A DNA stretch of 64,000 nucleotides from positions 4,948,001 to 5,012,000 of the forward strand of contig NZ_CP034449.1 of the NCBI RefSeq assembly GCF_003952425.1. Direction: 5' to 3'. A model generated the notes under the pieces. The model worked only from the letters and a program-made list of their open reading frames with translations. It was not told the origin of the DNA and did not search any database. Numbering within the stretch: the first letter of the stretch is position 1; every line of letters begins with the position of its first letter. Made by a program: the position numbers and the translations under genes. This stretch comes from Mesorhizobium sp. M2A.F.Ca.ET.046.03.2.1 (GTDB lineage Bacteria > Pseudomonadota > Alphaproteobacteria > Rhizobiales > Rhizobiaceae). Shown one piece after another: positions 37,125 through 59,140 of the stretch.

Positions 37125-37982
37125 TCAGCTGGTCGTCACGCTGGCGGCGAAAGCCGCGTCGATGATGGCGAGCTTGACCGCCTGCGCGGTGAGGTACTCG
37201 CTGTAGAATTCGTTCGAAATCCACATGACGGAATGGCCGCGCCGCCCAAGCCAGCCGACGCTGCCGAGCGCCTCGGCGTCGCGCAGCTTGCGCGCAAGGT
37301 GGGTACGCGACAGCTTCAGCCACCTGGAGAAGTCGCCGATCGACAGCACGCCAGTCGGAATGCGCTCCTGGCCGGCATCCTGTGGGTCGACGCCGGCGAT
37401 CAGCCAATCCATGACGACGCCGCCATTGTTGAGCCATGTGAACAGCGAAAAAGTCTGTTGCGGCTCCCGCACCGGCACCGAGGAGATCAGCCCATCCGCG
37501 ATCAGCGGCTGCAACCGCACCAACATTTGCGGCCGTGCCTGGAACATTTGCAGCCGGCTCCCGCCGTCAAGAGCATCAAGCGTGCTCAGATGCATATGAA
37601 TCCAGCCGATCAACGGCTCCAGGGTTATGGCGGGCAGGTGCAAGGGGCGAATGCGGCCGTCGTCGGCCATTGGACCGACTTCGATGAAATTATAGTGCTG
37701 CATTTCCTTGATGAAGGCATGGGCAGTGTTTCGGCTTGCAACTGCATGCTGAACGGTGACGTCGACAAAACGCGCCGCCGTCAGTTCCTTCCGGTAGTCG
37801 CTGGGATCCCTGCGGAAATGCAGGGCAAGACCGATATGCGCCATCAGCCAGCGCTGCTGGGTGGCAAAGACCGAGGACGCGCGCGGGTTTCCTTCATAGG
37901 CCTGCTGCATCGCCCGGGCCTGTGCCTGGACGGCGGCATTCAGCGCCGGATGACCGACAATGTCTTCGCAGTTCAGCGCCAT
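37125..37982 (-). CDS. Uncharacterised protein with two winged-helix-like segments, paralogue A
   Basis: 285 residues from the ATG at 37980-37982 (MALNCEDIVGHPALN); an extension to 38054 is possible. No family recognised with certainty. Two helix-turn-helix-like segments are visible: near residues 80-125 (RFVDVTVQHAVASRNTAHAF, IKEMQHYNFIEVG) and near 210-255 (IGDFSRWLKLSRTHLARKLR, DAEALGSVGWLGRRGHSVMW). It is a clear paralogue of the next gene upstream and probably DNA-binding. Convergent with the ROK gene (15-bp gap). Confidence 0.72.
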   Translation of the reverse strand: MALNCEDIVGHPALNAAVQAQARAMQQAYEGNPRASSVFATQQRWLMAHIGLALHFRRDPSDYRKELTAARFVDVTVQHAVASRNTAHAFIKEMQHYNFIEVGPMADDGRIRPLHLPAITLEPLIGWIHMHLSTLDALDGGSRLQMFQARPQMLVRLQPLIADGLISSVPVREPQQTFSLFTWLNNGGVVMDWLIAGVDPQDAGQERIPTGVLSIGDFSRWLKLSRTHLARKLRDAEALGSVGWLGRRGHSVMWISNEFYSEYLTAQAVKLAIIDAAFAASVTTS

Positions 37983-38100
37983 CCCCCCAGACTCCGCCAA
38001 ATATCGCAGTGTGCGGATGCGGATAGCAGTTTTGGCCGGCGCCTGCCAGCGCAACCAGCGGTATTTGTCGGCTGGGTCCGAGAAGCGACCGTTGCGCCAG

Positions 38101-38967
38101 TCAGCTCTCGTCCGCCTGGGACAAACTGTCGTCGAAAGCCAGGTCGACTAGGGCGAGCTTGGACGTCTGCATGACCATGTATTCGTCGAAGAACTGGCGT
38201 GAAACCCACATGACGGAATGACCGCGCTGGCCGACCCAGCCGATGCTGCCAAGCGCCTCGGCATCATTGAGTTTCCGCGCCAGGTGGGTGCGTGACAGCT
38301 TCAGCCAGTGCGCGAATTCGCTGACCGAGATGACGCTGGTCGGTATCCTGTCGAGATGAACGTCCTCCGGATCGATACCGGACATCAGCCAGTCCATGAC
38401 GATGCCGCCATTGTTTAGCCAGATAAACAACGAGAAAGTCCGCCCAGGCTCCCGCACGCCCTGGCTGGCCAGCAATCCATCGGCGATGAGCGGCTGCAGC
38501 CTGGACAGCATCCCGGGTCGATCGAGGAAAGTTGTCAGCCGGTTTCCGCCATCTATGCGGTCGAGCGTCCTCAGATGTGCGTGGATCCAGCCGGTGAAGG
38601 TTTCGATGGTGCCTTCGGTGACCCGCATGGGGTGGGCGCGGCCGTCACCGCTGGCCGAAATATACTCGACGATGTTGTAGCGAAGCATCTCCTTGACGAA
38701 GGCCTCGGCCGTGTTGCGGCTGGCAAGGGAATAGCGGCGTACGACCTCGATGAACCGCGCCATCGTCATGTCGGAGCGGCGGTCATTGGGATCGCGCCGG
38801 AAATGCAAGGCCAGACCGGCGTGACCGAGCAGCCAGCGCTGCTGGGTGGCGAACACGGCAGCCAGCCGCGGGCTTGTTTCGTATATGTGGATGAGCGCGC
38901 GCGCCTGCTCCTGGATGCAGCGAAGCGCTGCCGGATGACGGGCTATCTCTGCGGCACTCAGCGGCAT
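38101..38967 (-). CDS. Uncharacterised protein with two winged-helix-like segments, paralogue B
   Basis: 288 residues from the ATG at 38965-38967 with AGGAA just upstream. Aligns along its length with the 37.1-38.0 kb gene: VFATQQRWLLGHAGLALHFR, RYSLASRNTAEAFVKEMLRY, RLQPLIADGLLASQGVREPG, FAHWLKLSRTHLARKLNDAE and GSIGWVGQRGHSVMWVS all have counterparts. The two lie head to tail 118 bp apart. Both HTH-like parts keep the SRNTAxAFxKEM and LSRTHLARKL cores, so both are probably functional DNA-binding proteins. Targets unknown. Confidence 0.72.
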   Translation of the reverse strand: MPLSAAEIARHPAALRCIQEQARALIHIYETSPRLAAVFATQQRWLLGHAGLALHFRRDPNDRRSDMTMARFIEVVRRYSLASRNTAEAFVKEMLRYNIVEYISASGDGRAHPMRVTEGTIETFTGWIHAHLRTLDRIDGGNRLTTFLDRPGMLSRLQPLIADGLLASQGVREPGRTFSLFIWLNNGGIVMDWLMSGIDPEDVHLDRIPTSVISVSEFAHWLKLSRTHLARKLNDAEALGSIGWVGQRGHSVMWVSRQFFDEYMVMQTSKLALVDLAFDDSLSQADES

Positions 38968-39345
38968 TTCCTGCGGCACTCCAGGCGATTTTCGAAGAAC
39001 GGCAAATGAAGATTCCCAGTGTTCACCGGTTGTGTCCAGTTGCCTATTGGAACAACGAACGATCAAGCGGCGCGTTTGTTGCTAACTCGTTGCATCGGTT
39101 CGGGAAACCCGTCCCAATAATAGTCCGGCCCGCATCCCTGCGTTGAATAGGCGAGTCCGGTCAAGCAGGCATAGGTTCCGCGCCATCGGGGCTGCGGGGA
39201 GCGCTTTCCCGGGAAAAAATGAACAAGGACAGGGTCTGGCGCCCGATGCGCGGTGGCAACTGAAGTTCTCGTGTGGACTTTGCAGCGAGGAAGCGGCTAC
39301 CTATCGTGATGCCTTGACGCCATTTGCCGAGGCCGCCCGGGTGAA

Positions 39346-41989: not shown

Positions 41990-43309
41990 GTGACCCCTGC
42001 CGCCCGCCTGCAAGCCACAATCGAACTTATGGATGAAGTCGATAGCGTCGCGCGTCCCGCGGATGCTGTCGTCTCGGCGTGGTTTCGGGCTCGGCGCTAT
42101 ATCGGCGACAGGGACCGTGGCCAGATTTTGGAGTTGCTTTATGCGCTTCTGCGACACCATGCACGGCTTGGTTGGTGGCTGGCCAGGCATGGGCGCGAGG
42201 ATAGGCCCCGCAACCGCCTGCTCGCGTGGCTCACGCTGAAGGAAGGCGAGACGGCCGATCAGATCAAGCGCCTGTTCAACGGGGCGAAATTCGCGCCTGC
42301 CATCCTGACGGATCACGAGCACGCGCTGCTGGTCAAATTGCGGGGAGGCACGATCGACCATCCCGGCATGCCGGAAGAGGTGCGCCTTGAATGCCCGTCC
42401 TGGGCGGCCGATCCCCTGCGGCGCCGTTTCGGGGAAGCGTTCGGCCAGGAGATGTCCGCGCTTCTGGCGCCGCCGCCCCTTGATCTGCGCGTCAACCCGA
42501 TCAAGTCGACGCGCGAGGCCATGCTCAACGCGCTGAAGGATCTCGGCTTGCGGGCGCAGCCATCTGCCATCGCTCCTTACGGCATTCGTGTGCATGAACG
42601 CCCCTCGCTGGCGAGCCTGCTGATGCTCAGGACCGGTGAGGTCGAGATCCAGGATGAGGGCTCGCAGCTTGTCGCCATGCTGGTCGATGCCCGGCCGGGC
42701 GAGCGCGTGGTCGATTTCTGCGCCGGAGCCGGCGGCAAGACGCTGGCGGTCGCCGTGCAGATGAACAACAAGGGCCATGTTGTCGCCTGCGACGTCCTGG
42801 AAGGCCGTTTGAAGCGCGGCGCCGAGCGCTTCCGGCAGGCAGGATTGCACAATATCGAGACACGGCTCCTGGCCGGCGAAACGGATCGGTGGATCAAGCG
42901 CCACAAGGGCGGTTTCGATCGCGTGCTGGTGGACGCGCCATGCAGCGGCACCGGTACCTGGCGACGCAACCCCGATGCACGCTGGCGCGCGCAGGAGGAA
43001 CAGGGTCTGGACAATCTCGTGTCGCTGCAGGCCCGGATTCTGGCGAGCGCGGCGCGTCTGGTGAAGCCCGGTGGACGGCTGGTCTACGCGACATGCTCCA
43101 TGCTGTCCGAGGAGAATGAGGAACAGGTGGTAGCGTTCCTGGCGGCACATCCCGGTTTTCGTGTGGTGCCGCTTCACGAGGCCGCGCCGCAACTGACGAA
43201 CTCATCTCATCCGGACTATCTGTCGCTGACGCCCGCGCGCAACGATACCGACGGCTTCTTTGCCGCAGTCATGCAGCGAGAAGGTGCGCTCCCAGGTGGG
43301 CGCCCATAG
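41990..43309 (+). CDS. RsmB/NOP-family 16S rRNA cytosine-C5 methyltransferase
   Basis: 439 residues from a GTG at 41990. The N-terminal NusB-like helical part (YIGDRDRGQILELLYALLRH) is followed by the Rossmann methyltransferase: VEIQDEGSQLVAMLVDARPG, the SAM loop VVDFCAGAGGKTLAVAVQMN, VACDVLEGRLKRGAERFRQA, catalytic motif VLVDAPCSGTGTWRRNPDAR and second Cys in LVYATCSMLSEENEEQVVAF. The C-terminus is normal. Its 3' half (from 42836) and ~40 bp beyond its stop recur in two chimeric copies at 55.5-56.0 and 58.6-59.1 kb, so this locus is the intact parent. Confidence 0.93.
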   Translation: MTPAARLQATIELMDEVDSVARPADAVVSAWFRARRYIGDRDRGQILELLYALLRHHARLGWWLARHGREDRPRNRLLAWLTLKEGETADQIKRLFNGAKFAPAILTDHEHALLVKLRGGTIDHPGMPEEVRLECPSWAADPLRRRFGEAFGQEMSALLAPPPLDLRVNPIKSTREAMLNALKDLGLRAQPSAIAPYGIRVHERPSLASLLMLRTGEVEIQDEGSQLVAMLVDARPGERVVDFCAGAGGKTLAVAVQMNNKGHVVACDVLEGRLKRGAERFRQAGLHNIETRLLAGETDRWIKRHKGGFDRVLVDAPCSGTGTWRRNPDARWRAQEEQGLDNLVSLQARILASAARLVKPGGRLVYATCSMLSEENEEQVVAFLAAHPGFRVVPLHEAAPQLTNSSHPDYLSLTPARNDTDGFFAAVMQREGALPGGRP

Positions 43310-43478: not shown

Positions 43479-45032
43479 TCACTCCGTTGGCAGTGGCACA
43501 AGGTCGAGCTTCGGCACGATTTCCTCTGTCGCATCGTCAAGCGGTGGCGGTTCTTCTTCAGCTTCCTGCTTCGGTTCGACCATCAGCAGGCCTACCACGA
43601 TCAGCGCTAACGAAACCCAGGTGAGCGCCGGTATCGCTTCGCCCAGCAGCAACATGCTCCACCCTATACCGGCCGCGGTTACGGCGTAGGCGTTCTGGCT
43701 TGCGAACACAGCACCTGTGCTGGAGATCAGCGCAATGAAGAGCAGCATGGCCAGATTGCCGGCAACTGCCATCAAAATGACAATGATGCCAAGCCTTCCG
43801 GTCAACAAACCAACCGGTATGAAATCCCCATAAAAGGCCGCGAGCGGAATCAGCATCAAAAGCGAAGCAACCAGGACCATGCCGAACATGGCGACGCTGT
43901 CGACGGCAGCGGGTTTGAACTCCGAAAGATAGATATCCTCAGTGGCATAAGTGACCGGGATCACAAGCGCGATGGCAAGCCACAACCAATTCGTGTTCAT
44001 TTCCCCCGGCTCGCCAAAGAAAAGGATGATGACGATGCCGACGAGACCCAGTCCAAGCCCCAAGAACCGTTTCATGCTCGGCGCTTCGGTCCGCATCAAG
44101 GCCGCGAACAGGAATACGGCGAACCCTTCAAGTACGATGACGATGGAGACGATAAAGGCCGGAAGCTTGCTTGCCAGCCAATAGACCAGCACCTGATTGA
44201 CCACCGAGCTGATGAACGCGAGGATGATAACGAACCGCCAATCCGAGCGCGTGAGAGCAGACAGCCTCGGCATGGTCCTGCGCTTGAGGCTAATCCCGAG
44301 GCAGAACGCAGCTCCGATGAGGTCAATAAGGATCGCTAGTCCAATCGGGTGAGCTTCAACGAGCGAAGCCATTTTCGACAGCGGGACGACAAGGCCCCAC
44401 AGTCCTCCGCAGGCCAACAGCAGCAAGGCTCCGCGGAATGTGCGGATATTTTGCCGCATTTTGCGTTCGCGCTCGTAAACCTTTTGGGCCATCGTTGCGA
44501 ACACACTGGCGAGCTTGCCCAGACCATCGGTTCGGGCTGCCACATCGCGGATGCCCAGCTTCGAAGGGTTGAACCTCCCACTTTCCAGGGTCGCGGCCGC
44601 TTTCGTCAACTTGGCTACCTGACGCAGATATTCCTTCTCTACGTCGCGCAGTCGCTTTTTCTCGATGCACGTGGAAATCCGCGCCTTGAGAAGCGCCAGC
44701 TCGAAATCCTTGGGCAAGAAATCCTCGGCGCCCAATTCAATCGCCTTCACGACGCTGCTCATCTCATCGTCGAGCCCGGAAATCACAATCACCGGCACAT
44801 CCCGGGTCCGGGGCGAGCTCTTGAGGCTCGTCAGCACCTCGAAGCCGTCCATCACCGGCATCATGATATCGAGAAGAACAAGATCGAAATTTTCAACTGC
44901 GAGCAGATCGAGAGCCGCTCGCCCGTTCTCTACAGCCTCGGCTTCATGGCCGAGAGCCTCCACCGATTTTTTGAGCTTGATCCTTATGGTCCGAGAGTCG
45001 TCGACGATGAGAATTCGGCCAGGGTTGCTCAC
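43479..45032 (-). CDS. Response-regulator receiver domain fused to an EamA/DMT-family transporter
   Basis: 517 residues from a GTG at 45030-45032, one base after the Hpt stop and preceded by GGGGAA. Residues ~5-122 are a receiver domain: acidic pair D11-D12 in ILIVDDSRT, phosphoacceptor D55 in LVLLDIMMPVMDG, S85 and K108 in EDFLPKDFE, all key residues present. Residues ~123-200 are a helical linker with a HAMP-like stretch (VAARTDGLGKLASVFATMAQ, KVYERERKMRQ). Residues ~201-490 hold about ten hydrophobic helices of two EamA repeats (GALLLLACGGLWGLVVPLSK; FIVSIVIVLEGFAVFLFAAL; WLWLAIALVIPVTYATEDIY; LLMLIPLAAFYGDF), then an acidic C-tail. The natural reading is a metabolite exporter gated by phosphorylation. 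It is not a frameshift artefact: one frame runs throughout. Substrate unknown. Confidence 0.88.
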   Translation of the reverse strand: MSNPGRILIVDDSRTIRIKLKKSVEALGHEAEAVENGRAALDLLAVENFDLVLLDIMMPVMDGFEVLTSLKSSPRTRDVPVIVISGLDDEMSSVVKAIELGAEDFLPKDFELALLKARISTCIEKKRLRDVEKEYLRQVAKLTKAAATLESGRFNPSKLGIRDVAARTDGLGKLASVFATMAQKVYERERKMRQNIRTFRGALLLLACGGLWGLVVPLSKMASLVEAHPIGLAILIDLIGAAFCLGISLKRRTMPRLSALTRSDWRFVIILAFISSVVNQVLVYWLASKLPAFIVSIVIVLEGFAVFLFAALMRTEAPSMKRFLGLGLGLVGIVIILFFGEPGEMNTNWLWLAIALVIPVTYATEDIYLSEFKPAAVDSVAMFGMVLVASLLMLIPLAAFYGDFIPVGLLTGRLGIIVILMAVAGNLAMLLFIALISSTGAVFASQNAYAVTAAGIGWSMLLLGEAIPALTWVSLALIVVGLLMVEPKQEAEEEPPPLDDATEEIVPKLDLVPLPTE

Positions 45033-45033
45033 G

Positions 45034-45381
45034 CTAATTCCCCAGGTTGAAGATTGCTCGAAGCTCGCTGCTGGCGACGTCGAAGGCACGCTGTGCATCG
45101 CCGATCTCGGCAAGACTTGCGGGTTCGCCGCTTGCGCACCGCGCCTCCACCCCGGCGCAGATCTGGCTGAGATCAGTCGCACCCATATCCCGCGCATTCG
45201 ATTTCAGGGAGTGGGCAGCCCGTCGGACGGCAGCGTGGTCGGAGGCCTGACATGACGACCACATGCCCTGCATGATGGATGGCCCTTCCTCCAAGAAGGA
45301 CTCCACAAGCTCCAGAAGGTCGGCTTCCTCGCCACCGACAAGCTCACGCAGCTTGTCCAGCGCCCCTCTGTCGATCGCCAC
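45034..45381 (-). CDS. Free-standing histidine phosphotransfer (Hpt) protein
   Basis: 115 residues. Four-helix-type Hpt domain with the phospho-histidine H57 in RRAAHSLKSNARDMGA, preceded by GGEEADLLELVESFLEEGPS. Lies between the hybrid kinase (219 bp upstream on the same strand) and the receiver-DMT gene (adjacent). It would carry phosphate from the kinase receiver domains to D55 of the transporter fusion. A GATAAT-like -10 in the 219-bp gap suggests it may also have its own promoter. Confidence 0.9.
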   Translation of the reverse strand: MAIDRGALDKLRELVGGEEADLLELVESFLEEGPSIMQGMWSSCQASDHAAVRRAAHSLKSNARDMGATDLSQICAGVEARCASGEPASLAEIGDAQRAFDVASSELRAIFNLGN

Positions 45382-45600
45382 AACATCCCCCGATGTATGC
45401 TTCTTCGAACCAAAACCAGCGACAAAACATCTGCCGGCGCTGGCAAAAACGAGCGAAGTCGAACTCTCTGCTCCCCTTCTTTCAGAGTTCCATCGCGTTG
45501 AAAAGACAGATTATCGCACCAATGCTAAATTAGCGAGATCCCTATTCCCGGCGATGCTGCCGCGACGCTAATCTCGATTACTCCGACGCCGCTGTTCCAC

Positions 45601-48600
45601 CTAGGGACGACCGGGCGCGCTGGCATCTTCAAATTCACCCGCTGCACCCCGCGAACCTTCACCCAAATTCACGACGGCCTTGTTCAGGGAGGCTATAAGA
45701 TCTTCGACACGCAACGGTTTGCTCAGATAATCGTCCATTCCAGCATTCAGGTATCTCTCGCGATCACCCGCCATCGCGTTGGCGGTCAGGGCAATGATGA
45801 ATGGTCGATGCACGGGTTCGGCATTGATACGGCGGATCAATCTTGTCGCTTCGAGCCCATCCATGTCAGGCATTTCGATATCCATTAGGATAACGTCATG
45901 GCTGCCCTGGCTGTAGGCAGCGATCGCCGACTGGCCGTCGATTGCCAGGTCCGGCTTATATCCCAAGCGCTCGAGCACCTTAGAGCCAAGCTTGCGGTTG
46001 GTGGCATTGTCGTCGACCAAAAGAATCTGCAGTGGAAACGTGTTCGCCATCGAACCGTCAAAAGCGGGAGCCTTCGGTTGATCGGCTCGGGTGGAGCGAG
46101 CCGGCGTTCCAACGAAGATCGACAGCAACGTATTGAGCAATGGAGAAGGCTTGATCGGCTTGGATAGCGCGGCCGCAAACCGCAGACTTTCAATTTCCTT
46201 TTTCCTGTCCTCCGACATTGGCACCATGGAACTAAGTAGCACCAGCGGAACGCCTTCCATGCTTTCGAGCGCGCGGATTTTTCTAGCGAGTTCGATGCCA
46301 TCCATGTCAGGCATGTTCATGTCGAGAACGATGACATCGAAGACTTCCCCTGCTTCAAGCCTTCGCAGTGCGTCGCGCGGGTGTTCGCTCGCCGACGCGA
46401 CCATATTCCATGACTGCGCCTGCAGGGCCATGATGCGGCGGTTGGTTGCGTTGTCGTCCACGACCAGCAACCGCTTGCCTGCCAGTCCGACGGTAGCCGT
46501 CGGGGCGTTTGCTAATTGGCGCGATGCCACGGGCGCGCGAATCGTGAAGAAGAAAGTGGTGCCTTTTCCTTCCGCGCTGTCGACCCAGATCTCGCCGCCC
46601 ATCAACTCTACCAGACGCCTGCTGATGGCCAAGCCAAGTCCGGTTCCGCCATAGCGCCTGGTCGTAGAAGCGTCGACCTGGCTGAAGGATTTGAAGAGCC
46701 GGTCCATCCGGTCGCCGGGGATACCGATGCCGGTGTCGCGAACCGAAAATTGGAGCGTGCAAATCTTCCCCTCGCCGTCCTCGTTTGAACCATGGCTTGT
46801 GGCTGCGGGCGCGATCGTCATCACCGAAAGGACGATCTCTCCCCGCTCAGTGAATTTGACCGCGTTATTAAGGAGGTTGATCAGCACTTGGCGAAGCCGA
46901 CTACTGTCGGCAATTACCGCCTCCGGCGTACCGGGCTCGATCAAATAGCTCAGATCGAGCCCTTTTTCGGCCGTTCTCGGAGCTATTAGATCGATCGCAC
47001 TTTCCAGGCAATCGCGCAATTCGAACTGCCGGGGATCGAGATCGATCTTGCCCGCCTCGACCTTGGAGAAATCGAGTATGTCATTGATGATGGTGAGCAG
47101 GGCCTCGGCGCTGTTGTTAATTGTCTCTCCAATTTCCCGCTGCTCGTCATCTAGTTTTGTCGCCAGGAGCAAGTTGCTCATTCCGATCACGCCGTTCATT
47201 GGCGTACGAATCTCGTGGCTCATCGTCGCCAGAAACGAACTCTTCGCCTCATTTGCCGCCTCGGCCGCCTCCTTTGCCTGCTGGAGAGCCAGGGACAACT
47301 GTTTGAGCTCAGTGAATAGTTGCGCGTTGTGCAGGGCAGAGCCCGCATTGGCGGCAATGGTGGAAAGCAAGCGGAGCGAGTCATCGGTAAAAATGCCCTC
47401 CCGCGTAGTGCTCTGAACACTGATAACGCCAAGCGTTCCTTGGGCCGTTTTGATCGGAACGCCGAGGTAGGACAAGGCATTCTTGCCGACGGGGGTGGCC
47501 CCGATCTGAGCCCCCCTTTTCGCCACATCCTGATTGATGAGCAGCGGCTCGCCGGTCTGTATGATCTTGCTCGTCAGTCCCTCGCCGAGCGTGAGCGTGG
47601 TGAAGGCCTCGCCAAACTGATAGGGGAAATGGATTAGCTTAGTTTCCGGATCGAGCAGAGCGACGTAGACGATATCGGCATCGAAGATTTCCTGCATCTG
47701 ATTGCCGATCAGCTGGATCGTGCTTTCGAGTTCGGATTCCGCTATCAGCGCCTGGCTGACCATACTGATGGCGCCGAGCTCGGCAGCGCGAGCTTCTGTC
47801 ACTCTCAGCAGACGCTGCGTTTCGTTAAACAGGCGGGCATTGGCTATGGCGACGACCATGTTGGAGGCAACCGTCTGCAGGAGGCGTACGTGATTTTCGT
47901 CAAACGCATTCTCCCGGTAGCTTTGTACACTGATAACCCCCAGCGTTCTTTCACCAGACTTGATGGGAACACCTATGTAAGATGCGGTCCTGTCCTTTTC
48001 GTCTGGAAAGAATGCACCAAGCTCTTTTCCTCCCTCGAGAGTCGTGAAGACTAACGGGCGCCCTGTATCTATGATTTTGGACGCTACACCCACGCCAAAC
48101 GGAAATGGATCAATAACTCTATATTGCCTGAAGTATGCATAAGGCACATGGATCAGACCGGATTCCCTGTCATGCAGCAGAATTTCACTGACCTCGGTCC
48201 CGAAGGCCTCCCGCACCTTATCGCCTACAAGACGAATTACTGTATCCAGGTCTAGTGACTGTGTCATAGCCTCGCCAACGCTATTGAGAATAGCGAGTTC
48301 TGCCGCGCGGTCCTCGGTTACCTTCAGCAAGCGCCTGGTCTCGGTGAACAGCCTCGCCTTTTCAACTGCAATAGACGTCGCATTACCAATCGTGGTGAGC
48401 AGATTCACGTCCGATTCATTGAAGGCGTGCTCGTGATCGAGGTTTTGCAGGGAAATGACGCCCTTTGCCTGTCCTCCGATGATCAACGGTACGAACAGCC
48501 CCGACTTAGCTGCCTCACCCTGCAGCACGGGGTTGCCGTATTTCTCGGACGCAGTGATAGCATCATTGAGCAGCAATGGCTGCCCCGTATCCATGACATG

Positions 48601-50019
48601 TTTCCGAAAACCAATGAGCGGCATCGGTAAATCGGGGAAGCGAACGTTCCGCTCAATCGTATAAGGAAAATGCAGAAGGTTGTCGTCGGGATCGAACAGT
48701 CCGATATCCACCACCTGGGCATCGAAAATCTCATGAATCTGGTCGCCGATCTGGTCATATATCTCCTGCATTTCCAAATTGGAGACGAGCACTTCCTGAA
48801 CGCCATTCACGAAGGCCAGTTCAGCATTACGAGCCTCCATCATTTTCAATAGGCGCTGGGTCTCGTCGAACAGGTGGGCGTTAGAGATAGCGACGCCCAT
48901 GCTGGATGAAAGCCCCTGCAACAGACGCACATGATCTTCATTGAAGACATTCTTCTCGTAGCTCTGGACGCTGACGACACCCAAAGTCCTGTCGCCAGCG
49001 ATGATTGGCACACCTAGGTAGGATTCGGTCCTGTCTTCCTCTGTAGGTATAAGTGCACCCGGAGCAACGTGTTGCTCAGTCGTACCCAATACCAATGGTT
49101 TGCCTGACAGTATGACCTTTGAGGTCAGCCCTTCGCCCATCGCAAATGGTTCGGGGTCCTGATAGCCCTTGTAAAATGCATAGGGTACGGTGATTAGGTC
49201 AGACTTCTCATCACGCAGGAGGATTTCGGTGACGTCCGTTCCGAATATTTCGCGCACCTTATCACCGACGATGCGTGTGACGGTCTTGACGTTCAGCGTC
49301 TTCGCCATTGCTTCGCCGACGCTGTTGAGAATGGCCAGTTCCTTTGCGCGGTCCTCAGATACTTTCAGCAGCCGCTGCGTTTCGTCGAAAAGGCGTGCAT
49401 TGGCAATCGCAACGCCCATGCTTGATGACAAGCCTTGCAGCAGGCGCAAATGATCTTCGCCAAAGGCATTCTTTTCGTAGCTTTGAACACTGACAACGCC
49501 CAGGGTTCTGCCACCGGCGATGATTGGTACGCCGATATACGATTCTGACCGCTCCGCTTCGCTGAGGAAGATCGCACCGAACTCAATGGACTGTTCAGAC
49601 GTCCCGAGAACCAGTGGTTTTCCAGAGAGGATGACCTTGGAGGTCAGCCCCGCGCCCAAAGTGAAAGGCTCGACGTCCTGGTACTCGCGGTAAAATGAAT
49701 ACGGGACGGTGATGAGATCAGAGGCCTCGTCGTGCAACAAAATTTCGGTTATATCCGCCCCAAATATTTCACGTACCTGATCGCCCACGATGCGGGTCAC
49801 CGTCTTGACATTCAGCGTCTTTGCCATCGCTTCACCGACGCTGTTGAGGATGGCCAATTCCTTCGCGCGCTCCTCGGCGAGTTGAATCAGGCGCTTGTTT
49901 TCGGCGGAAAGTCGATCAAGCTCGATTGCCGCGTCAGCATAATTATTTTCCAGTTCGGCAATACGGCGATCTGCGGATGCCAGGCGACTTGCAAGATCGC
50001 TTCCCACCGAGCCCTGCAT
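45601..50019 (-). CDS. Hybrid sensor histidine kinase with five tandem GAF domains and two receivers
   Basis: 1472 residues, no membrane helices or signal peptide. A short coiled coil (1-50) is followed by five GAF-type repeats starting near residues 54, 226, 398, 571 and 744, a period of ~172; repeats 1, 2 and 4 share [10 protein letters not shown] and GVPI...RTLGVxSVQSY. The HisKA box has H935 in [20 protein letters not shown]; HATPase motifs are [40 protein letters not shown] and [20 protein letters not shown]. Receiver 1 has D1233 ([11 protein letters not shown]) and receiver 2 has D1380 ([11 protein letters not shown]). The Hpt and receiver-transporter genes follow on the same strand. 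A cytoplasmic signal is likely. GAF1 and GAF2 are so alike at DNA level that recent internal duplication is probable. Confidence 0.93.
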
Positions 50020-50679: not shown

Positions 50680-51894
50680 ATGGATACCACAGGCAATGGG
50701 CAATGGCGTTGCGACGTGGGCGAGCGACCCCGTCGATCGGCCGGCTGGCTTGCCTGCGCCACCGCGTCGGCGGCATTCCTGCTCGGCATGGCTTTCAGCA
50801 GCACTGCGTTTGCGCAGGACCAGCAGCTGCCCGTGGTGACGGCGGCCAAGCCGGTGGTGCGTGACATCATCGAGGACGACGAGTTCGTCGGGCGTTTCGA
50901 AGCCGTCGACCAGGTTGCCATCCGTTCGCGCGTCAGCGGCTATCTGGACAAGGTCAGCTTCCAGGACGGCGCACTGGTCAACAAGGGCGACCTGCTCTTC
51001 ACCATCGACCAGCGTCCGTACCAGGCCGCTTATGATGCCGCCAAATCGCAAGTGGATGTCGCCAAGAGCCTGCTCGAATTCACCAAGATGCAACTGGATC
51101 GCGCCAACGAACTTGCCAAGACCGGCAACATCTCGCCCGCCACGGTCGACGACCGCCGGCGGGAATACCTTGCGGCGCAGGCGCAGATGCAGGGCGCGAC
51201 GGCTGCGCTGACGACGGCCAGCCTGAACATGGAATTCACTGAGATCAAGGCGCCGTTGTCCGGCCGCATCGACCGCCGGCTGGTATCGGTCGGCAACCTC
51301 GTGCAGCCGGATTCCACCTTGCTGACGACCATCGTCACGCGCGACCCGATCGACTTCTATTTCGACGTCGATGAGCGTCTGTATTTCAGCTACGCCCGCG
51401 ACGCGATGGCGCGTGGCGGCAGCATGCAGGAAGGCGCCGGCGGGCTCGATGTGCAGGTTCAGGTCGCCGACCGCGCGGAGGCGGTGGTCAAGGGCAAGCT
51501 CGATTTTGCCGAGAACCGGATCGACAACGCGACCGGCACAATGCGGGTTCGTGCGACGTTTCCCAACCCCGACGGCGTTCTCCAGCCAGGCATGTTCGGG
51601 CGCATCAACGTGCCGGGGTCGCTGCCGCATAGCGGCGTGCTGGTGCCTGACGAGGCGATCGGCGCCGATCAGGATCGTCGCATCGTGTTGCTGGTGGACG
51701 AGGCCGGAATGGTGTCGGCGAAGCCCGTGCGCACCGGACCGCTTCTCGACGGCTACCGGGTGATCCGCTCGGGCCTGACCGGCGCCGAGACGATCATCGT
51801 CAACGGGCTGATGCACGCAAGGCCCGGCACCAAGGTGAAGGTCGAGATGGTGACGTTGCCGCCCAAGGTCGAAACCGCCGGGTTGCAGCAATGA
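50680..51894 (+). CDS. RND efflux periplasmic adaptor subunit
   Basis: 404 residues. A long N-terminal region with a late signal segment (LACATASAAFLLGMAFSSTA, cleavage probably after AFA); no lipobox. Membrane-fusion-protein domains: PVVRDIIEDDEFVGRFEAVD, VAIRSRVSGYLDKVSFQDGA (lipoyl half), an alpha-hairpin (AAKSQVDVAKSLLEFTKMQL), then IKAPLSGRIDRRLVSVGNLV and the beta-barrel/MP region (QPGMFGRINVPG). MexE/AcrA-type. Overlaps the transporter gene by four bases (ATGA). An outer-membrane factor gene is not present nearby. Confidence 0.92.
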   Translation: MDTTGNGQWRCDVGERPRRSAGWLACATASAAFLLGMAFSSTAFAQDQQLPVVTAAKPVVRDIIEDDEFVGRFEAVDQVAIRSRVSGYLDKVSFQDGALVNKGDLLFTIDQRPYQAAYDAAKSQVDVAKSLLEFTKMQLDRANELAKTGNISPATVDDRRREYLAAQAQMQGATAALTTASLNMEFTEIKAPLSGRIDRRLVSVGNLVQPDSTLLTTIVTRDPIDFYFDVDERLYFSYARDAMARGGSMQEGAGGLDVQVQVADRAEAVVKGKLDFAENRIDNATGTMRVRATFPNPDGVLQPGMFGRINVPGSLPHSGVLVPDEAIGADQDRRIVLLVDEAGMVSAKPVRTGPLLDGYRVIRSGLTGAETIIVNGLMHARPGTKVKVEMVTLPPKVETAGLQQ

Positions 51895-54800
51895 GGTTCG
51901 CGCATTTCTTCGTCGACCGTCCAATCTTCGCATCGGTCGTTTCGATCGTCCTGCTGATCCTCGGCGGGATTGCTTATACCCAGCTGCCGGTCGCGCAATA
52001 TCCCGAGATCGCGCCGCCGACCATCGTCGTTCGCGCGCAGTATCCGGGCGCCGACGCCCAGACGGTCGCAGCGACGGTGGCAACGCCGATCGAGCAGGAG
52101 ATCAATGGCGTCGAGGGCATGCTCTACATGTCATCCTATTCGTCGGGCGACGGGTCGATGGCGCTGACCATCACCTTCAAGCTGGGCACCGATCTCGACA
52201 AGGCGCAGGTGCTTGTGCAGAACCGCGTGTCGGTCGCCGAGCCGCGCCTGCCCGAAGAGGTCCGCCGCCTCGGCATCACCACCACCAAGAGCTCGCCCGA
52301 CCTGATGATGGTCGTGCACATGCTGTCGCCCGACAATACCTACGACCAGCTCTACGTCTCGAACTACGCCCGCTCGCGGGTGCGCGACATACTGCTCAGG
52401 TTAGACGGCGTCGGCGACCTTATCATCTTCGGCGAACGCGAATATTCGCTGCGCATCTGGCTTGATCCGGAAAAACTGTCCGCCCTGGGAATGACCTCGG
52501 GCGATGTGGTGCAGGCGCTGCGCGATCAGAACGTCCAAGTGTCGGGTGGCTCGATCGGCGCGCCGCCGACGGGCACCGGCACGGCGTTCCAGTACACGGT
52601 CACCACGCAAGGCCGCTTCAACGACGCCCGCGACTTCCGATACGTGATCGTCAAATCGACCGACGACGGGCGCCTGATCGCGCTGCAGGACGTGGCGCGC
52701 ATCGAACTCGGAGCCAAGGATTACGTCACCAACTCCTATCTCAACGGCAAACCGGCGGTCGCGCTCGCCATCTTCCAGCGGCCGGGCACCAATGCGCTCG
52801 CCGCGGCCGCGGAGATCCAGGACAAGATGAAGGAGCTTTCCCGCGACTTTCCGAAGGGGTTGAACTACGACATCGTCTACAATCCGACCGAGTTCGTCGC
52901 CGAGTCGATCCAGGAGGTCTACAAGACGATCCTCGAGGCGATGCTGCTCGTCATCATCGTCATCATCGTCTTCCTGCAGTCGTGGCGCATGGCGATCGTG
53001 CCGATCGTGGCGATCCCCGTGTCGCTGATCGGCACCCTGGCGGTGCTTTACGCCGCCGGCTTCTCGCTCAACATGCTGACGCTGTTCGGCCTCGTTCTGG
53101 CGATCGGCATCGTCGTCGATGATGCGATCGTCGTGGTCGAGAACGTCGAGCGCAATATTGCCAGTGGGCTGGCGCCCAATCCGGCGTCGCACCTGACAAT
53201 GAACGAAGTCGGAACGGCCATCATCGCGATCTCGCTGGTGCTGATAGCCGTGTTCGTGCCGACAGCCTTCATCCCCGGCATTTCCGGGCAGTTCTACCTG
53301 CAGTTTGCGATTACCATCGCGGTCTCGACGGCGATATCGGCATTCAATTCGCTGACGCTTTCGCCAGCTCTGGCCGCACTGCTGTTCAAGCCGCACCATG
53401 CCGCGGCGGCGGCGCCGCGCTTTTTCCTGGCGCGGTTCGGACGGGCGCTCGCCGACGGCTTCAATCGCGGCTTCGACAGGGTCGCCCATTGGTATTCCAG
53501 CATCATTCGCGTGCTGGTCGGCTCGCGGATAGCGATCACCGCCATGCTGGCCGTTTTCGCGGCCCTGATCTACGCCACGGTCTACATGGTGCAGACGGTG
53601 CCGCGCGGTTTCATTCCGTCGCTCGACCAGGGCTATGCGATCGTCGTCGTCCAGTTGCCCGACGGCGCCTCGCTGTCGAGGACCGATGCGGTCATCCAGC
53701 AGGCGTCGCAAATCATCCAGAAAACCCCAGGCGTCGACTACGCAGTCGCGTTCGCCGGCTTCTCCGGCGCGACCTTCACCAACGCCAGCAACCAGGGCGT
53801 CATCTTCGCCAGGTTCAAGCCGTTTGATGAGAGGCTGAAAGCCGGCCAGTCGGCGACCAGGGTCATCGGCAATCTGTTCGGCAGCCTGCAAAGCATCAAG
53901 GAAGCCTTCATAATAGCACTGCCGCCGCCGCCTATTCGCGGCGTCGGCAATGCCGGCGGCTTCAAGCTGCAGATCCAGGAGCGCAACAGCGCCGACATGC
54001 GGCAGATCCTGGCGCTTGCCTACGAAATCGCCGGCAAGGCCAACAAGACGCCGGGGCTGATGGGCGTGTTCACCACCTTCTCCGCGTCGAGCCCGCAATT
54101 CTTCCTTGCGATCGATCGCGACAAGGCGCGCATCCTGAACGTGCCGATCCCCAACATCTTCGAGACTCTGTCGATCAATCTGGGCACTGCTTATGTCAAC
54201 GACTTCAACGCTTTCGGGCGCGTCTACCAGGTGCGGGCGCAGGCCGACCAGGCCTTCCGCCTCGATCGCGCCGACATCTTGAAACTGAAGGTTCGCTCGG
54301 CGTCCGGCGCGCTGGTTCCGCTCGGCACGTTGCTCGAGATCCGCGACGTCACCGGCCCGGCGCTGGTCCAGCGCTACAACATGTACGTCTCGGTGCCGCT
54401 GCAGGGCAACGCCGCGCCCGGCGTTTCCACGGGCGACGCGCTGGCATTGATGGAAGGGATCACGGCAAAGACGTTGCCGGCCGGTACCTCCTACGAATGG
54501 ACCGAGCTCGCCTATCAGGAACGCAACACCGGCAATGCCGCAGTCTATATCTTCGGACTGTCGGTGCTGTTCGTCTTCCTGGCGCTGGCGGCGCAATATG
54601 AAAGCTGGGTGCTGCCGTTTGCCATAGTGCTGGTGGTGCCGCTCGGCGTGCTCGCGGCGTTGCTCGGCGGGACTTTCCGAGGGCTGGACAACAACATCCT
54701 CGTGCAGATCGGCCTCATCGTGTTGATCGGGCTTGCCGCCAAGAACGCGATCCTGATCGTCGAATTCGCGCGGCAGGCGCAGGAACGGGGCCTGTCGGTC

Positions 54801-55094
54801 GCAGAGGCTGCCGTCGAAGCCTGCCGGCTCAGGCTGCGGCCGATCCTGATGACCGCCTTCGCGTTCATCCTCGGCGTCGTGCCGCTGATGATCGCAACGG
54901 GCCCGGGCGCAGAAATGCGCCAATCGCTCGGCACCGCGGTGTTCTCCGGCATGCTCGGCGTCACCTTCGTCGGCCTGTTCCTGACGCCGGTGTTCTACGT
55001 CACGCTCAGGTCGCTGTTTTCAGGGCGCAAGCCCCGTGCCGAAGCCGAGCCTTCGGGGCCGGCAGAGACGCCATCGGAGACGCCCGCCGAGTAG
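51891..55094 (+). CDS. RND multidrug efflux transporter, HAE1 family
   Basis: 1067 residues, about 12 membrane helices and two large periplasmic loops. FFVDRPIFASVVSIVLLILG at the start, GVEGMLYMSSYSSGDGSMAL, the proton-relay Asp pair in LFGLVLAIGIVVDDAIVVVE on TM4, a TM10 Lys in GLIVLIGLAAKNAILIVEF, and a C-terminal RLRPILMTAFAFILGVVPL. Closest by motif to MexF/BpeF-type exporters. The C-tail is Pro/Glu-rich. Likely exports hydrophobic or aromatic compounds with the upstream adaptor; substrates unknown. Confidence 0.94.
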   Translation: MRFAHFFVDRPIFASVVSIVLLILGGIAYTQLPVAQYPEIAPPTIVVRAQYPGADAQTVAATVATPIEQEINGVEGMLYMSSYSSGDGSMALTITFKLGTDLDKAQVLVQNRVSVAEPRLPEEVRRLGITTTKSSPDLMMVVHMLSPDNTYDQLYVSNYARSRVRDILLRLDGVGDLIIFGEREYSLRIWLDPEKLSALGMTSGDVVQALRDQNVQVSGGSIGAPPTGTGTAFQYTVTTQGRFNDARDFRYVIVKSTDDGRLIALQDVARIELGAKDYVTNSYLNGKPAVALAIFQRPGTNALAAAAEIQDKMKELSRDFPKGLNYDIVYNPTEFVAESIQEVYKTILEAMLLVIIVIIVFLQSWRMAIVPIVAIPVSLIGTLAVLYAAGFSLNMLTLFGLVLAIGIVVDDAIVVVENVERNIASGLAPNPASHLTMNEVGTAIIAISLVLIAVFVPTAFIPGISGQFYLQFAITIAVSTAISAFNSLTLSPALAALLFKPHHAAAAAPRFFLARFGRALADGFNRGFDRVAHWYSSIIRVLVGSRIAITAMLAVFAALIYATVYMVQTVPRGFIPSLDQGYAIVVVQLPDGASLSRTDAVIQQASQIIQKTPGVDYAVAFAGFSGATFTNASNQGVIFARFKPFDERLKAGQSATRVIGNLFGSLQSIKEAFIIALPPPPIRGVGNAGGFKLQIQERNSADMRQILALAYEIAGKANKTPGLMGVFTTFSASSPQFFLAIDRDKARILNVPIPNIFETLSINLGTAYVNDFNAFGRVYQVRAQADQAFRLDRADILKLKVRSASGALVPLGTLLEIRDVTGPALVQRYNMYVSVPLQGNAAPGVSTGDALALMEGITAKTLPAGTSYEWTELAYQERNTGNAAVYIFGLSVLFVFLALAAQYESWVLPFAIVLVVPLGVLAALLGGTFRGLDNNILVQIGLIVLIGLAAKNAILIVEFARQAQERGLSVAEAAVEACRLRLRPILMTAFAFILGVVPLMIATGPGAEMRQSLGTAVFSGMLGVTFVGLFLTPVFYVTLRSLFSGRKPRAEAEPSGPAETPSETPAE

Positions 55095-55277: not shown

Positions 55278-56028
55278 GGCGCCAAGCTGCCTGCGAAATC
55301 GGATCTGCTTGTGGCTCGGATCGCCACCCGGCAAATCAGCTATGCTGATGAGCGTTACGGCTCACTTCTTTGGAAAGGGCACGCCCTTGGTGGTGAATCG
55401 CTGTCCTCTGCCGATCGAGCGCACGGGGCGCTTCGTGGCGGCGGCCTTGCCGGTGCCGGGCGGCTGGTGGGCAGGCACGAGCTGGTCGGGGCGGGGACCG
55501 ATCAGGTCGGCGCGGCCCAGGCCGGATTGCACAATATCGAGACGCGGCTCCTGGCCGGCGAAACGGATCGGTGGATCAAGCGCCACAAAGGTGGTTTCGA
55601 TCGCGTGCTGGTGGACGCGCCATGCAGCGGCACCGGCACATGGCGACGCAATCCCGATGCGCGCTGGCGCGCGCCGGAGGAACAGGGTCTGGACAAGCTC
55701 GTGTCGTTGCAGGCCCGGATCCTGGCGAGCGCGGCGCGCCTGGTGAAACCCGGTGGACGGCTGGCCTACGCGACATGCTCTATGCTGTCCGAGGAGAATG
55801 AGGACCAGGTGGCAGCGTTCCTTGCGGCACATCCCGCTTTTCGTGTGGTGCCGCTGAACGAGGCCGCGCCGCAACTGGCGAACTCATCTCATCCGGACTA
55901 CCTGTCGCTGACGCCCGCGCGCAACGATACCGATGGCTTCTTCGCCGCCGTCATGCAGCGAGAAGGTGCGCTCCCAGGTGGGCCCATAGCCATTCGCGAT
56001 CCATTTTTTTGAATGACCTGAATGGGGC
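55278..56028 (+). repeat. Chimeric repeat copy 1 (ygiQ 3' end joined to rsmB 3' part)
   Basis: Bases 55278-55519 (242 bp) match 60022-60263, the last ~158 bp of ygiQ plus ~84 bp beyond its stop, in the same orientation. From 55518 the sequence switches to the RsmB-type gene (matching 42836-43350) and runs through its stop and downstream motif. The junction is ...GCGGCCCA|GGCCGGATTGCAC and is identical in copy 2. The 180 bp before the repeat, from the RND stop, hold nothing recognisable. Confidence 0.88.
55518..56012 (+). pseudogene. RsmB-type methyltransferase 3' fragment, copy 1
   Basis: Encodes the last ~160 residues of the methyltransferase in an open frame (AGLHNIETRLLAGETDRWIK, VLVDAPCSGTGTWRRNPDAR, LAYATCSMLSEENEDQVAAF), with a slightly altered end. 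The NusB-like domain and SAM-binding loop are missing, so it cannot be an active enzyme. The frame stays open upstream through the antisense ygiQ part to 55311, giving a 233-residue chimeric ORF; that N-terminal part has no protein homology and is probably not translated. Confidence 0.8.
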
Positions 56029-56145
56029 CGGAAGCGGCCTGGCACTTTTGGCTGCCGAGGAACGATAGCTGATGATCAACCCTCGGGTAGGTCTTAGAAC
56101 TGCGTACACGCGGCCGGCGGAGGCCCCAATGCATGCTCTCCAGTG

Positions 56146-58394: not shown

Positions 58395-59140
58395 GGCGCC
58401 ACGCTGCCGGCGAAATCGGATCTGCTTGTGGGTCGGATCGCCACTCGGCAGATCAGCTATGCAGATGGAGCGTTCTGGGACACTTCTTTGGAAAGGGCAC
58501 GCCCTTGGTGGTGAATCTCTGTCCTCTGCCGATCGGGCGCACCGGGCGCTTCGTGGCGGCGGCCTTGCCGGTGCCGGGCGGCTGGTGAGCGGGCACGAGC
58601 TGATCGGGGCGGGGACCGATCAGGTCGGCGCGGCCCAGGCCGGATTGCACAATATCGAGACGAGGCTCCTGGCCGGCGAGACGGCTGAATCAAGCGCCAC
58701 AAGGGTGGTTTCGATCGCGTGCTGGTCGACGCGCCATGCAGCGGCACCGTCACCTGGCGACGCAATCCCGACGCGCGCTGGCGCGCACGGGAGGAACAGG
58801 GTCTGGACAAGCTTGTGTCGTTGCAGGCCCGGATCCTGGCGAGCGCGGCACGCCTGGTGAAGCCCGGTGGACGGGTGGTCTACGCTACATGCTCCATGCT
58901 GCCCGAGGAAAATGAGGACCAGGTGGCCGCTTTCCTGGCGGCGTGTCCAGTCTTTCGTGTTGTGCCGCTTAATGAGGCCGCGCCGCAGCTGGCGAACTCA
59001 TCTCATCCGGACTATCTGTCGCTGACGCCCGCGCGCAACGATACGGCTTCTTTGCCGCCGTCATGCAGCGAGAAGGCGCGCTCACGGGCCGGGCCACCAT
59101 AGCCATTCGCGAACCACTTTTTTGAATGACCCGAATGGGC
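58395..59140 (+). repeat. Chimeric repeat copy 2 (ygiQ 3' end joined to rsmB 3' part)
   Basis: Same structure as copy 1: 58395-58637 matches the ygiQ 3' end and its flank, 58636-59140 matches the rsmB 3' part and its flank, with the same junction. It differs from copy 1 by many substitutions and small indels. It starts ~205 bp after the DUF2332 stop. A shared CCGACAT just before GGCGCCA in copy 2 and the native ygiQ flank suggests the homology extends a few bases further left there. Confidence 0.88.
58636..59103 (+). pseudogene. RsmB-type methyltransferase 3' fragment, copy 2, degraded
   Basis: Same fragment as copy 1 but broken: near 58682 an eight-base stretch of the parent (ATCGGTGG) is replaced by CTGA, shifting the frame, and near 59043 four bases (CGAC-type) are missing ahead of GGCTTCTTTGCC. 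The catalytic-loop sequence is altered to APCSGTVTWRR. Certainly non-functional. Confidence 0.82.

Follow-up and report, generated by a model that had tools for sequence, protein, structure and literature searches.

A Phosphorelay That May End on a Membrane Transporter: A Receiver-EamA Fusion in Mesorhizobium

A 64,000-nucleotide stretch of a Mesorhizobium genome, called the window throughout, encodes together a multistep phosphorelay set: the His and Asp of a hybrid kinase, the His of a lone Hpt protein, and the Asp of a terminal receiver (REC). The terminal receiver belongs to a protein that continues through a HAMP-like linker into an EamA/DMT membrane domain. The reading favored here, held with moderate confidence, is a phosphorelay ending on a response regulator that has a membrane transporter as its output, with phosphorylation setting the activity of the DMT domain. 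REC-EamA is here treated as a response regulator of a new output class.

The Kinase, Hpt, and Fusion Genes

The initial annotation had described three co-directional genes encoding a kinase, an Hpt protein, and a receiver-EamA protein, and Pfam finds all three on the minus strand (Table 1). In the fusion, Response_reg and two EamA repeats lie within one open frame. The phosphorelay residues stand where they had first been placed: H935 in HisKA, D1233 in REC1, and D1380 in REC2 of the kinase, as read from the sequence, together with the Hpt and receiver residues entered in Table 1. The numbering of the receiver residues is valid given translation from the GTG at 45032-45030, which is the most likely start of the fusion. 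This codon lies one base past the TAG stop of hpt (45036-45034), in keeping with the adjacency reported for the two genes. A longer, 572-aa ORF for the fusion was discarded; its extra length comes from an upstream in-frame ATG inside hpt. Elsewhere in the source genome, Hpt gives one further match at E ≤0.001, and that match belongs to a second trio.

Table 1. Genes of the trio and domains of the fusion in the window
Feature	Coordinates	Strand	Evidence
Hybrid histidine kinase, 1472 aa	45601..50019	minus	Pfam: five GAF, HisKA, HATPase_c, two receivers
Lone Hpt protein, 115 aa, H57	45034..45381	minus	Pfam PF01627, 2.2e-12
REC-HAMP-EamA fusion, 517 aa	43479..45032	minus	Pfam, GTG start, conservation, structural model
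Receiver domain, about residues 5-125; D11, D12, D55, S85, K108	44658..45020	minus	Pfam PF00072, 6.1e-26
HAMP-like linker, last receiver helix to first transmembrane helix	44430..44657	minus	Weak Pfam HAMP match; model
EamA/DMT membrane domain, about residues 199-487, about ten transmembrane helices	43572..44438	minus	Pfam, two EamA stretches (PF00892); fold match; hydropathy

Recurrence and Rarity of the Fusion

An artifact of assembly or annotation, in which two genes were taken for one, has a negligible probability. The source genome is a single 7.37-Mb contig, and the occurrence of REC fused to EamA in related genomes, by which the initial annotation had proposed to judge such an artifact, was established with 21 intact fusion sequences; two plasmid records give the fusion as one annotated CDS. 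Because intact fusions occur in independent genomes, an assembly artifact is rejected. The source genome itself holds another fusion, 78% identical to that of the window, in its second trio (L009).

Wider genome sampling shows that the REC-EamA fusion is rare. Within the window's genus it is present in 10 of 146 genomes, at 11 loci. In the order, a linker-EamA profile found hits in 25 of 397 genomes, and in the class in 50 of 385; hits that began at the first position of the linker were confined to G000 and G263 in the order and to G000 in the class. Both searches scored no more than 4 or 5 first-look candidates per genome, and misses are possible. Across the phylum, a query with the linker alone found matches in three of 299 genomes, G000, G1102, and G270, and the match in G270 reads as a HAMP-like stretch within an adenylate-cyclase-type protein. 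The family of G1102 gave matches in eight of 374 genomes, with REC-EamA in seven, where G1409 has a truncated remnant, and absent from G1474. This family would belong to Rhodobacterales, provided that G1385, whose contig coordinates agree with those of the Brevirhabdus genome, is that genome. On that assignment, the fusion loci are spread over the window's rhizobial genus, Devosia (where Devosia sp. 66-14 has the fusion), G263 of the same order, and Rhodobacterales. In a search of contigs, the linker or EamA matched only in L012 and L013 among the best 80 of 595 stretches.

Three plasmid records were also matched, all from Mesorhizobium and with 83% identity across the linker-EamA part. All three annotate the fusion merely as 'response regulator', and fusions labeled in this way are therefore easily missed. 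The trio is found on the plasmids MesoLj131b4 and pML2037 (L211 and L212) of Mesorhizobium from Lotus.

Conservation of the Gene Cluster

The fusion, whole or broken, was placed at 22 distinct loci: 11 in the window's genus, two on Mesorhizobium plasmids, one each in Devosia, G263, and Brevirhabdus (G1385), and six further in the G1102 family. The proposed co-occurrence of kinase and Hpt genes with the fusion is found throughout this set, with a kinase in the same cluster and on the fusion's strand at 22 of 22 loci and a lone Hpt at 21 of 22, the exception being G1409. With G1409 excluded, each of the 21 tabulated loci keeps the His motif of the kinase, the His of Hpt, and the Asp of the receiver, and hpt is separated from the fusion by 1 bp at eight of them and overlaps it at 13, by the ORF starts used. 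The usual order is kinase, Hpt, fusion, and two loci deviate from it. Three SBP_bac_3 genes separate the kinase from hpt in the second trio of the source genome, while in Brevirhabdus a broken third fusion copy follows hpt and two intact copies lie upstream of the kinase.

G1409 is a natural loss of the relay. At this locus (L204, 8759-10158), an ORF with the look of an IS3-type transposase separates the kinase from a receiver that is truncated and lacks the phospho-Asp region; no Hpt was found there, and the kinase is broken across two frames. Two other genomes carry several fusions beside one kinase-Hpt pair, namely two intact and one broken in Brevirhabdus/G1385 (L013, 8992-12172) and two on opposite strands in G1420 (L206, 8268-11664), and these multiple fusions suggest that one relay branches to several transporters. 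In the tree of the fusions, G1385b and G1420b group together on a deep branch of their own.

The fused receiver could instead be served by other kinases, or be active unphosphorylated, with the trio merely co-inherited. Cross-talk of this sort is allowed by the 41 places in the source genome, the two fusions included, that match a REC plus linker query at E ≤1e-5. This reading is nevertheless highly improbable, as the cluster is kept at 22 loci that include plasmids and widely separated genera, and the phospho-site is invariant, with D11, D12, D55, S85, and K108 all conserved in 21 of 21 intact fusions aligned. A REC-linker unit carrying other outputs was sought in the source genome, where whole-length matches occurred only in the two fusions. 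That phosphate would reach D55, as the favored phosphorelay reading has it, is supported well by the anatomy of the proteins and by gene order.

The Receiver and the HAMP-Like Linker

A PDB sequence search returned the PleD receiver as the best match to the fused receiver. Within the window's genus, purifying selection acts on REC, linker, and EamA alike, with mean dN/dS values of 0.10, 0.06, and 0.09, respectively (28 pairs from 8 sequences).

The linker had been described as HAMP-like, and Pfam HAMP (PF00672) does match six of eight linkers at E ≤10, the best at 1.2e-6, with the window's own copy below the cut-off (E 0.016 and 15.9 bits against 25). Among full-length fusions, HAMP matches at E ≤0.01 in two of nine, the best reaching 24.7 bits against the cut-off of 25, and gives no match in the other seven. 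The modeled linker consists of two long helices, 113-152 and 171-197. A canonical HAMP is C-terminal to a transmembrane helix, whereas the linker of the fusion precedes the first membrane helix. It is called HAMP-like here, and not a canonical HAMP.

The EamA/DMT Membrane Domain

The fusion was modeled as a monomer (pLDDT 78.6, pTM 0.57), and the placement of REC relative to the membrane is unsure in this model. The membrane part takes a DMT fold, and the nearest solved folds include LicB (7b0k/7paf) and the triose-phosphate translocator (5y78), members of the DMT superfamily that have the fold and two EamA repeats in common with the fusion. The fusion differs from this superfamily in about 195 added N-terminal residues (REC-HAMP) and in the replacement of several TM3-TM4 core residues. 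A sequence profile of the linker and EamA parts found nothing in the PDB at E 0.1. The protein had initially been called a DMT exporter. The two EamA repeats and the fold uphold the DMT assignment, but export is at most putative, with an importer (LicB) and a translocator (5y78) among the nearest folds and several core residues changed.

The EamA domains of the fusions form one clade, with support of 100/100, apart from 59 stand-alone relatives; these were gathered with a fusion-derived model, and closer unfused relatives might be missed. Repeated independent fusion events are rejected for this sample on the strength of the single clade. The 59 stand-alone DMTs define 44 columns in which one residue reaches at least 70%, and 23 of the 44 are kept in 12 representative fusions, picked from 21 to thin near-copies. 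The signature of the second half is kept, with G440, F443, Q446, Y449, G455, and E465 in 12 of 12 and V442 in 11 of 12. Residues of the first EamA half are replaced. P279 in TM3, found in 95% of stand-alone DMTs, occurs in two of the 12 representatives, while G293 and P303 in TM4, found in 93% and 97%, occur in none (numbering of the fusion versus stand-alone comparison).

The replacement of these TM3 and TM4 residues leaves two readings of the fused DMT: a remodeled transporter, which REC-HAMP may hold or gate, or a non-transporting membrane effector. As a non-transporting protein, the EamA part would be an anchor or receptor-like module, and the membrane-tethered receiver would dock a partner or act as a phosphate sink. 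Loss of P279, G293, and P303 from 10, 12, and 12 of the 12 representatives speaks for such a role, which is rather unlikely overall; the favored reading keeps the membrane domain as a transporter under receiver control.

Variation of the Sensor Inputs

The sensors differ between loci and the output is constant. By Pfam, the window's kinase has five GAF domains, that of the second trio three, and that of Devosia two; the second-trio kinase also has an apparent N-terminal membrane segment. Pfam reads the Brevirhabdus kinase as CHASE5-HAMP-PAS, those of G1179, G1102, and G1390 as a TorS-like sensor followed by HAMP and PAS, and that of G1470 as HAMP-PAS. The five-GAF cytoplasmic sensor of the initial annotation thus holds for the window's kinase but not for the system, the other scanned kinases having two or three GAFs or other sensors; because their inputs differ, it is a trait of the window's copy.

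Genes for SBP_bac_3 proteins are present at the second trio and in G263, G1390, and G1474. In Brevirhabdus, G1409, and G1420, mutually alike genes (65-71%) adjoin the kinase; they have no Pfam match at E 0.1 and read as binding proteins. The G1474 locus (L209, 1729-6046) encodes a binding protein, a kinase with an Hpt-like end, and then a REC-HAMP protein without EamA, after which comes a frame that by reading is of ParA-like ATPase type. This arrangement suggests use of this input module for other outputs as well.

Proposed Mechanism

A sensed ligand or state would activate the hybrid kinase, and phosphate would pass from H935 to one or both of D1233 and D1380. From there it would move to H57 of the lone Hpt and on to D55 in the receiver of the fusion. 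REC domains, once phosphorylated, would pair, and the signal would run through the HAMP coiled coil and transmembrane helix 1 to set the activity of the DMT domain. Since HAMP lies ahead of the membrane domain, its signal would travel inside-out, from the cytoplasm into the membrane. Usual HAMP signaling takes the opposite direction. We infer the phosphate path, the REC pairing, and the HAMP transmission from knowledge of the families and, more weakly, that transport is what would change, together with the direction of that change. There is about an even chance that these proteins make up a class of response regulators in which a DMT-fold membrane protein is gated, by way of an inside-out HAMP, when the receiver is phosphorylated.

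The flow could also be reversed, as in a transceptor, with substrate occupancy of the DMT domain altering phosphorylation or dephosphorylation of REC and so feeding back on the kinase. The usual driver of HAMP is a membrane domain, which counts for this possibility. So does the existence of transporter-kinase fusions: CbrA joins a transporter and two-component parts on one polypeptide (PMC13022988), and an ammonium transporter-kinase fusion is known (PMC5764959). In those fusions the transporter is attached at the input end, to the histidine kinase, whereas here it sits on the receiver, at the output end, and the window's kinase and transporter are separate genes. Moreover, the relay terminates on the fused receiver, with no other receiver gene within the window's trio, and GAF arrays, transmembrane sensors, or binding proteins already provide for sensing. 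A transceptor is therefore quite unlikely, and the direction from kinase to transporter is preferred.

A transporter as output suggests that direct transporter switching, instead of the switching of genes on and off, is possible in these bacteria. If this is true, there would be signal-to-transport circuits without a change in gene expression; at some loci such a circuit would start with a periplasmic binding protein, proceed by way of kinase and Hpt, and act on one, two, or three transporters. Membrane flux would be altered soon after the signal, without new protein. The fusion would also offer a genetically clean system in which to see how a membrane protein responds to phosphorylation and HAMP motion on its cytoplasmic side.

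Relation to Known Systems

PleD-type regulators and others with GGDEF, EAL, PP2C, or enzyme outputs likewise use an N-terminal phospho-receiver to drive an attached effector. Their effector is a soluble enzyme or nucleic-acid binder, whereas that of the fusion is a membrane transporter domain. TorS-type phosphorelays, in which TorT is the periplasmic binding protein partner, have in common with the present relays a TorS-like hybrid kinase (in three relatives), an Hpt step, and a binding protein nearby at some loci. They end on a DNA-binding regulator, whereas the relays described here end on the transporter fusion. In the rhizobial PTS-Ntr system, a phosphorylation cascade influences transporters (PMC7020829); its proteins are unrelated to those of the trio, and the cascade involves no receiver fused to a transporter.

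Surveys divide the outputs of response regulators into those that bind DNA, RNA, or protein and those that are enzymatic, leaving a remainder unclassified (PMC2964678, PMC4618731), and those of archaea fall into the same classes (PMC5847659). Within the accessible text of the literature on EamA with receiver domains, or on transporters with REC, no REC-EamA protein or transporter output is described, and earlier mention in reviews of output domains is possible. The accessible Mesorhizobium literature on EamA and response regulators, including PMC8436566, likewise holds no description of REC-EamA. One paper, in the part available, names EamA and a receiver domain in separate table rows, with no fusion.

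Genomic Neighborhood of the Trio

Two adjacent minus-strand genes at 37125-38054 and 38101-39066 encode proteins of 309 and 321 aa that are alike by eye and have no Pfam match at E 0.001. Divergent from the kinase, an RND adaptor and a permease (RND_permease_1 family) occupy 50680-55094. RND-type genes lie near the trio at four of the 11 loci of the window's genus. G845 shares the window's RND adaptor region (93% by protein, 95% by DNA), and the G884 and G829 stretches hold distant RND-type genes (21-26%); no pump-protein matches were listed at the other seven genus loci, some of which are short stretches. An RND pump as a constant part of the system is not supported, and it may be a frequent neighbor.

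DNA similarity to the other trio loci compared covers about 43.35-50.2 kb, and the RND adaptor region is additionally shared only with G845. An rsmB-like gene lies at 41990-43309, with copies of its 3' end at 55518-56044 and 58636-59139 (93% and 88% identical, respectively). The trio and the RND pump sit between the rsmB-like gene and the first 3'-end copy, an arrangement suggestive of repeated insertion at the 3' end of rsmB.
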